Part shown: one piece after another, positions 22,972-25,900 of the stretch
Layout: each line of letters begins with the position of its first letter
Numbering within the stretch: the first letter of the stretch is position 1
From: Antennarius striatus
Lineage: Eukaryota > Chordata > Actinopteri > Lophiiformes > Antennariidae
Length of the DNA: 64,000 nt
Direction of reading: 5' to 3'
NCBI RefSeq assembly: GCF_040054535.1
Contig: NC_090780.1
Location: 16,525,501 to 16,589,500 of the forward strand
Program-made: the position numbers and the translations under genes
The notes under the pieces: model-generated
What the model was told of the DNA's origin: nothing
Seen by the model: only the letters and a program-made list of their open reading frames with translations
Databases searched by the model: none

Positions 22972-25900
22972 TCAGGTAGGTTTGCAGATCCATTTTGCAC
23001 ACCCATTCAATACTGTAACTTAATGAACATCATTAATCACAATGTTGAAATTACATATTCACATCACTGACTGTGATGTTAGAGTATTTTTTCTAATTTG
23101 CAGCAAACACAAATAAAACTAAATATACTGGCACTGCTATAACGTTGGTCTGGGTCTGAGGTAACTGAGTATTTTACATTCATGATGAGCATTTCTTGAT
23201 CCAAAAGCACCTTTAAAGGTTTTCTTCTAGTAAGTTTTTTTAGGTGCTTGTTTTACTGTGTTTCAAAGAAAGAAGCATTGGTCTGAAACTTTTTGAAAGT
23301 ACTGCACTTCATCTATATCCAGAAAGATGAAATGGGGAGCTGAGTTAAAGCATCAGGATAAGCAATGAATGCCAGGCCAAATCCTGCACAAAGGAACAGA
23401 AATCAAATATTAGATATCAGGTAGTGAAGTTTTAACATTTTTAAAAGTAAGCGGTGGTGTAGGTATCTGACCAAAATGTTTCATATCCAACAAAGAAGAA
23501 TCGCTGGAACAAAGTTGGTCATCTACAAGCAAGTTCCTATTTGAAAATAGAGAAAAACTACTAGCTAACCTAAATACAAATAAACAGCTTTGGGGTACCA
23601 CTCAGATTTAGCAGAGTAACAGGAAAATCAATAGGTCATAGCCTCTGTTAACGTATCAATAAAAACTGGTTCAGTAGTGCTATGGTTAGGGAAACTACGC
23701 TCCACTGAACTTCTATCTCCATTTTGTTTACCAAGGAATGTTCCTTCCTTCCATCCATTTTCCTGAAAAGGAGACGACTGTAATTATGTCATCTTCAGCC
23801 ACTTTTCAGCATGTCCCAGCAGGATGTGGGCGACAGGGTATGCCCCACATGTGTTACCAACGCAGGGCTTCACGAGAGACAACCACTCACACTCACAACT
23901 ACGGCCGATTAAGAGTGATCGATTTACCAAAATTCCAGATTTTTGAAGATGTGATGGTGCTGGAGAACCCAGAGAGAATCCACACAGACATGGGGAGAAC
24001 ATACAAGCTCAATGGAGAAAAGGGATTGAACCTGGAATGTTCTTGCTGTGTGGTGACAGTGCTACTCACACAGTTATTTGAACTATAATGTATATTCACC
24101 CAAAGGTAAATGATGATGATACAACGGGGATGGGTGTGGATACATTCATAGGATGCAGAGCATTGCACCTTATTTTAACAATTGTAATCCTTGGAAAGAA
24201 CTTACCCACTTAAGCTTACAGTATTTCGCTTGTTAACACAGGTCCATGAAATGTGTGCATCTTTTTACGGTTCTGTTAACAAAGGTCATATATCCTTTTG
24301 GAGAGCTCCTTTGGACGTGCTTGACCAAAATGTTGTATGTGTGGTTTTTAAATGCAAACCTTTCCCACACATTTTGTGTGAATTTAAGGATTCCCAGGAG
24401 CTTACCCATGTGTTTCCAAATTTATTAATCTGAGGAACATCAGGGGGGTGACTCATAGCAGGAAGTTGCAAAACAAGTTAAGCAGTAACTTATACTTGCT
24501 AAATTTAACTATAAAAACAAAGTAGGAATTAACTGAGTAGTGGAAGTTTGTGTCCTACACGCACGGCCATTACATCAATTAAAATGACGCCCGTTTTCTT
24601 TGGCAACTTTCCAACAAACCACCACCTGTCTACTGCATAGAAACTGTATCGTCCTTACTGTAGCTGTGACTAAAAATTATTTCGTCCTTGCTCCCATTGG
24701 TTTCAAGAAGAGCATCATGAAACTTTTAGTCCCGTCTGGCCCTTGGTTTTGTTTTCTACTCTTGTGTGGGAAATTAAAATTATTTTTGTTCTCTGTTGAC
24801 TGTAAAACTTATTGTCCCTCAGGGATAACAAAGACTGACTTCAGATTGATATGTCTGGGATTTTGTAGGAAATTGATTTTGAAAAACCATTTTGATATTG
24901 AAAAACGGTTACCACTTGATGTTACTTTACTACTATGTAACGTAAGCAAGCATGAGATTGTTCGAGTATTTATCTCGCACTTAGGCTAGAAGCAACGTAA
25001 TTTGGATGTTGCTTTTTTTTTTAGACCCACTATTGTTGTTGTTTTACATTTGCACTCCAATGGTTTGGCTATACCAGCGAAATTGTTTTGTCACCAAAAT
25101 AAGATTTTTAGTATTATATATGAAATTCTTTAGTATCATCTATCATACCTTAAATGATTTTTTTTTTTGCACTTTTGTGCACAAGAGTCTACCAGCTGCA
25201 ACATGTACACTGCAAATCATGGCTATGAATCCTGTGCAGAATCAAATTACCGGTAGTCCTCAGCCTATGGACACAATTGGTTCTGAGAGTTTGTTCATAA
25301 GTTGAATTGTTGGTAAGTCAATGTTTATGAAATTTCAATCTATAATCGCCATTTGAGGTCATTGACTTCGAAGAAAGAATTCATAACTTATTTACATTTT
25401 ATTTGTTATGTGATTCTGCACTATGTTTTGCTTTGGAAAATTATCAGTTTCTCTCAGCCACATTTGTCTGTAAGTTATTCGTGACACATGTCAAGATGCT
25501 TGATGAAGACCTTATACTGTAAACTACAAAAGTTCTTATTTGTAGTAGGTCTATTGTGTTCTTGATTTTATTACTAAGGTAATTCATGCCACGTTTAGTG
25601 TAAGAAGAAACTTTCCCATTTAAAAACTTCTTGTAAACAGGAATCACAAACGGTTGATGGTGATGAGAATCCTGTGCGTGGAAACTGGACAAACAAAGCA
25701 GAGTACCTATTGTCTATGATTGGCTATGCTATTGGCCTGGGGAACATCTGGAGATTTCCATATCTAGCCTACAAGAATGGAGGGGGTGAGTATTTATCAT
25801 TGTTGTTTACAAATATTATTATGAATTTAATTTTATCATGTCAAGAAATTTGAGCAAATGTAGATGAGAGCTTGTTAATATCCCTGTGATCAGGTGCCTT

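Follow-up and report, generated by a model that had tools for sequence, protein, structure and literature searches.

Intron 9 and the first part of exon 10 recur, inverted, within intron 1 of an SLC6-like gene of Antennarius striatus: a likely local templated insertion

The window analysed here, a stretch of 64,000 nucleotides of the Antennarius striatus genome (NC_090780.1, 16525501-16589500), carries four SLC6-like gene copies arranged in tandem, of which copy 1 is cut by the window start. Copy 3, a member of the SLC6 family (Sodium:neurotransmitter symporter, PF00209), has its coding part at 22925..32452 on the forward strand, where 15 coding exons make up an open frame of 620 aa and all introns are of the GT-AG type. 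The 620-aa product matched PF00209 over residues 30-569 (Pfam, E 2.3e-183), and the nearest solved structure by sequence was an entry for glycine transporter 2; presumably, the protein resembles SLC6A14. The comparison of copies 3 and 4 gave a dS of 0.236 and a dN/dS of 0.24 (618 codons), the latter indicating that the copy 3 frame is under constraint, albeit this figure mostly dates from the time before the insertion described below. The two copies differ at 11 of 88 positions in intron 9 (12.5%) and have diverged strongly in intron 6, where 35% of the aligned bases differ.

Exon 11 of copy 3 (29817-29932) comprises 116 bp, which is 3 bp less, in frame, than the 119 bp found in copies 2 and 4. 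In copies 2, 3 and 4, intron 11 ends in a long TG run that lies directly ahead of the exon 12 acceptor (19078-19187, 29998-30115 and 42655-42739, respectively). Intron 13 of copy 2 contains a direct duplication of 121 nt (21025-21145 and 21295-21415; 93% alike, 270 bp from start to start). A search against Rfam at the gathering threshold yielded no match across 22000-33000.

Coding exon 1 of copy 3 (22925-22975) is followed by an intron of 2665 bp (22976..25640), and exon 2 starts at 25641. Within this intron, as the earlier note had placed it, we found an inverted copy of a downstream part of the same gene. The insert (23319..23472, reverse strand) is the reverse complement of 29522..29675 on the forward strand, and the comparison of the window with itself aligned the two over 154 bp with three mismatches and no gaps (98.05%, E 9e-71), a match far above chance. 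The 148-base core described previously (23325-23472, matched to 29522-29669 in reverse complement) was reproduced with exactly two mismatches and no gaps over 148 columns. The source segment comprises the last base of exon 9 (29522), intron 9 (29523-29610) and the first 65 bp of exon 10. Thus, the content reported earlier held for intron 9 and exon 10, whereas the supposed end of exon 9 amounts to a single base. All 88 bp of intron 9, with the donor GT at 29523-29524, are present in the insert, and the two arms of the inverted pair are separated by 6049 nt. The source has been kept in place: exon 9, intron 9 and exon 10 are all undamaged and run collinear with their counterparts in copies 2 and 4. 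As its source is retained, and as it lies in the opposite orientation at a displaced site and is not a mobile repeat, the insert falls among dispersed inverted duplications, or templated insertions, in the broad sense.

We searched the 548-Mb genome (42 contigs) with the 154-bp insert at E <= 0.001, scoring only the best candidates and skipping very common words. The matches listed were in four places, all inside the window: the insert itself and the corresponding segments of copies 2 (16239..16393, forward strand, 92% to the insert), 3 and 4 (42124..42277, forward strand, 90%). Copy 1, for which the self-comparison of the window gave a 96-bp match of 77% to the insert, was not listed, indicating that the genome search can miss matches as weak as this. 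When the insert was compared with copies 3, 4 and 2 (copy 1 being left out), it agreed with copy 3 at 19 of the 22 variable columns, but with copy 2 at nine and copy 4 at six; five columns were common to the insert and copy 3 alone, and two were private to the insert. These columns show copy 3 to be the source. The earlier note had singled out an origin in another nearby gene copy as the finding that would overturn its reading; another gene copy as the source was ruled out by the variable columns together with the genome search, which gave no other source. At position 29627, the insert has the base of copies 4 and 1 and differs from copies 3 and 2, suggesting that the source was altered later, or that an allele or conversion was involved.

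The divergence between the insert and its source is 3/154, or 1.9% (exact 95% limits, 0.4-5.6%). Set against the dS of 0.236 between copies 3 and 4, this value points to a young insertion, one that is much younger than the gene copies unless it was refreshed by conversion. A recent inverted duplication or inverted gene conversion had been proposed previously. Duplication is borne out by the identity, the copy-3-specific bases and the genome search; conversion, although it may have played a part, is not needed, and no insert-like match was found in intron 1 of copy 2 or 4.

To the left of the insert, copies 3 and 4 are alignable with gaps over 22869-23316, the end point being set by the end of the query at 23318. 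The left flank (23100-23318) aligned to intron 1 of copy 4 with a score of 93.5, and none of 300 shuffles was as good; in a plain genome search with 22976-23318, copy 4 was matched over the first 116 bases only. On the right, no recognisable similarity was found. The score against intron 1 of copy 4 was 56.5 for 23473-23800 (81 of 300 shuffles did as well) and 63.5 for 23473-24200 (207 of 300 did so), and 31 of 200 shuffles were as good as the alignment of 23473-23940 to copy 2. Omitting the insert gave no better alignment to copy 4 (446 without and 448 with the insert). The two flanks joined scored 126, as compared with at most 96 among 200 shuffles, a result that the left flank alone can largely explain and that is not proof of an empty site. 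As there is no alignable empty site on the right, the event may have exceeded 154 bp. The missing similarity need not be peculiar to this flank, since other introns have diverged strongly and intron 1 of copy 3 contains dispersed repeats.

At the left edge, CCAGA is common to the source and the insert before the first mismatch, and no repeat above 11 was found across the left junction. A 13-mer spanning the right junction (23468..23480, forward strand) recurs 854 bp downstream, at 24322-24334; repeats of at least 13 occurred at 14 of 282 control positions window-wide and at 1 of 282 within intron 1. This 13-mer may hint faintly at a second template switch. The dispersed repeats of intron 1 lie at 25248-25363 and 25372-25502; among the 40 places scored (from 1290 candidates) in the search with the intron, one was the window itself, 38 fell at or around 25248-25363 and one fell at 25372-25502. 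A putatively SINE-like repeat family occurs in both orientations at 4160-4487, 33763-34093, 59974-60241, 49506-49619 and 23941-24069, with pairs being ~68% to 92% alike. No match was found between intron 1 of copy 3 and phage records, a result that carries no information in this case.

One event, either a template switch acting locally or break repair of an error-prone kind, would account for the insert. We infer the repair mechanism, and the exact pathway within it, from the arrangement of the two segments, and the steps might be as follows. A break or stalled fork would have arisen in intron 1 of copy 3, and in the course of repair the polymerase would have taken its template, ~154 nt long, from the opposite strand of the same gene at a point 6 kb downstream. 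On going back to the original site, the polymerase would have left an inverted dispersed copy in intron 1. Altogether, we regard it as likely that the insert is a single, young, local templated insertion with no selected function, the arms of which stay mostly unpaired in RNA. Counted against this reading are the lack of an alignable empty site on the right, the pattern at 29627, a template distance beyond the range of PMC8421209 and a length beyond that of PMC7954356.

Events of related kinds have been reported. PMC8421209 describes inverted templated insertions that carry microhomology and arose in the germline, and those MMBIR templated insertions (MMB-TI) resemble the insert in being inverted copies of a nearby template with the source kept. 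Nevertheless, the templates were sought there within 100 bp, so that the template at 6049 nt lies outside that range. Local template switches are documented in ape evolution (PMC7954356), and the short-range switches in great apes likewise leave a reverse-complement copy of local sequence, and hence an inverted repeat. The gold-standard set of that study has a median of 12 nt and a maximum of 128 nt, modelled within one fork, whereas the insert is 154 nt from 6 kb away. The templated insertions at complex chromosomal insertion junctions that are presented in PMC5120786 include templated pieces hundreds of bp long (376 and 815 bp, for example) as well as inverted insertions, as in our case, albeit they are part of large rearrangements in patients, whereas one small piece is seen in copy 3.

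The near identity, the inverted orientation and a right flank without recognisable homology to copies 2 or 4 could also be produced by an assembly or library artefact, in which a chimeric or fold-back read piece had entered the assembly. We consider this very unlikely: the window has no N, the contig spans 26.65 Mb, and the two bases private to the insert and the one common to copies 4 and 1 are unexpected for a direct chimera of the same haplotype, although another haplotype or read errors could yield them. It is yet harder to believe that a piece of copy 3 was captured and brought in by a mobile element, or was reverse-transcribed from unspliced RNA. The dispersed repeats of intron 1 and the window-shared repeat at 23941-24069 would be in keeping with a mobile element. 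Nevertheless, none of the 14 inverted pairs in intron 1 has arms at both edges of the insert (a single pair, of 17 nt and 76%, reaches the right edge with one of its arms), and no further copy appeared among the genome search matches listed. The best flanking direct repeat is imperfect over 17 columns; 112 of 5000 shuffles did as well, as did 5 of 143 other pairs in intron 1, and thus there is no convincing target duplication. Transposon capture is therefore unsupported by the checks of edge repeats and inverted pairs. Poly(A) is absent from both edges of the insert, which speaks against the mobile element and the RNA route alike. A processed retrocopy of spliced mRNA was excluded, as the insert retains intron 9 and thus was not copied from such an mRNA.

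A local templated insertion would leave copy 3 with two arms that can, in principle, pair in the pre-mRNA. The predicted duplex comprises 154 bp with three mismatches (-276.5 kcal/mol) and lies over both splice sites of intron 9; the earlier proposal of a self-complementary pair over the intron 9 acceptor was thus right as to the acceptor, but the donor is covered as well. Pairing of the intron 1 arm with intron 9/exon 10 would hide the donor of exon 9 and the acceptor of exon 10, and the splicing of copy 3 would change, be it by retention or skipping, by editing, or by circularisation of exons 2-9, a scenario that we judge improbable. We found no unusual competing structure in the 341 nt around intron 9 (z +1.87), which would leave this arm free to pair. 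Occlusion or looping out of splice sites has been reported for inverted repeats and for intronic Alu elements (PMC7404189), and the pair in copy 3 is like these in that its complementary arms flank exons or lie over splice sites. It differs from those repeats in that one arm takes in both a donor and an acceptor as well as coding sequence, and in that its pairing is predicted from an energy. Several observations weaken the case. The arms, in introns 1 and 9, are 6 kb apart, and the exon 9 donor, which is needed for a circle of exons 2-9, sits within the first bases of the duplex. Moreover, an inverted pair of similar strength (-267.9 kcal/mol) is found in copy 4, where 41047-41212 in intron 8 and 43279-43444 in intron 12 (166 nt, 85% complementary) enclose exons 9-12; strong inverted pairs are therefore not special to copy 3. 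Intron 1 is transcribed ~6 kb ahead of intron 9 and is probably removed first. Splicing has probably taken out intron 1 by the time intron 9 is transcribed or shortly afterwards, so that the arms could pair but mostly would not. The dsRNA, masked acceptor, editing and circular RNA of exons 2-9 suggested earlier for the copy 3 pair are possibilities at most. It would be attractive to speculate that a newborn antisense segment inside the gene controls that same gene, with the pairing of the arms giving copy 3 splicing, editing or circle formation unlike that of its neighbours in the tandem cluster, but there is little chance that this is the case.

The insert is probably neutral, with no selected function, and looks like an ordinary scar of DNA repair of an already known kind. 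As such, it would illustrate clearly how a tandem gene cluster can acquire a short inverted templated insertion whose age can be roughly estimated. If RNA data show that the scar alters the splicing of one paralogue only, the cluster would serve as a natural experiment on RNA pairing at a range as long as 6 kb.
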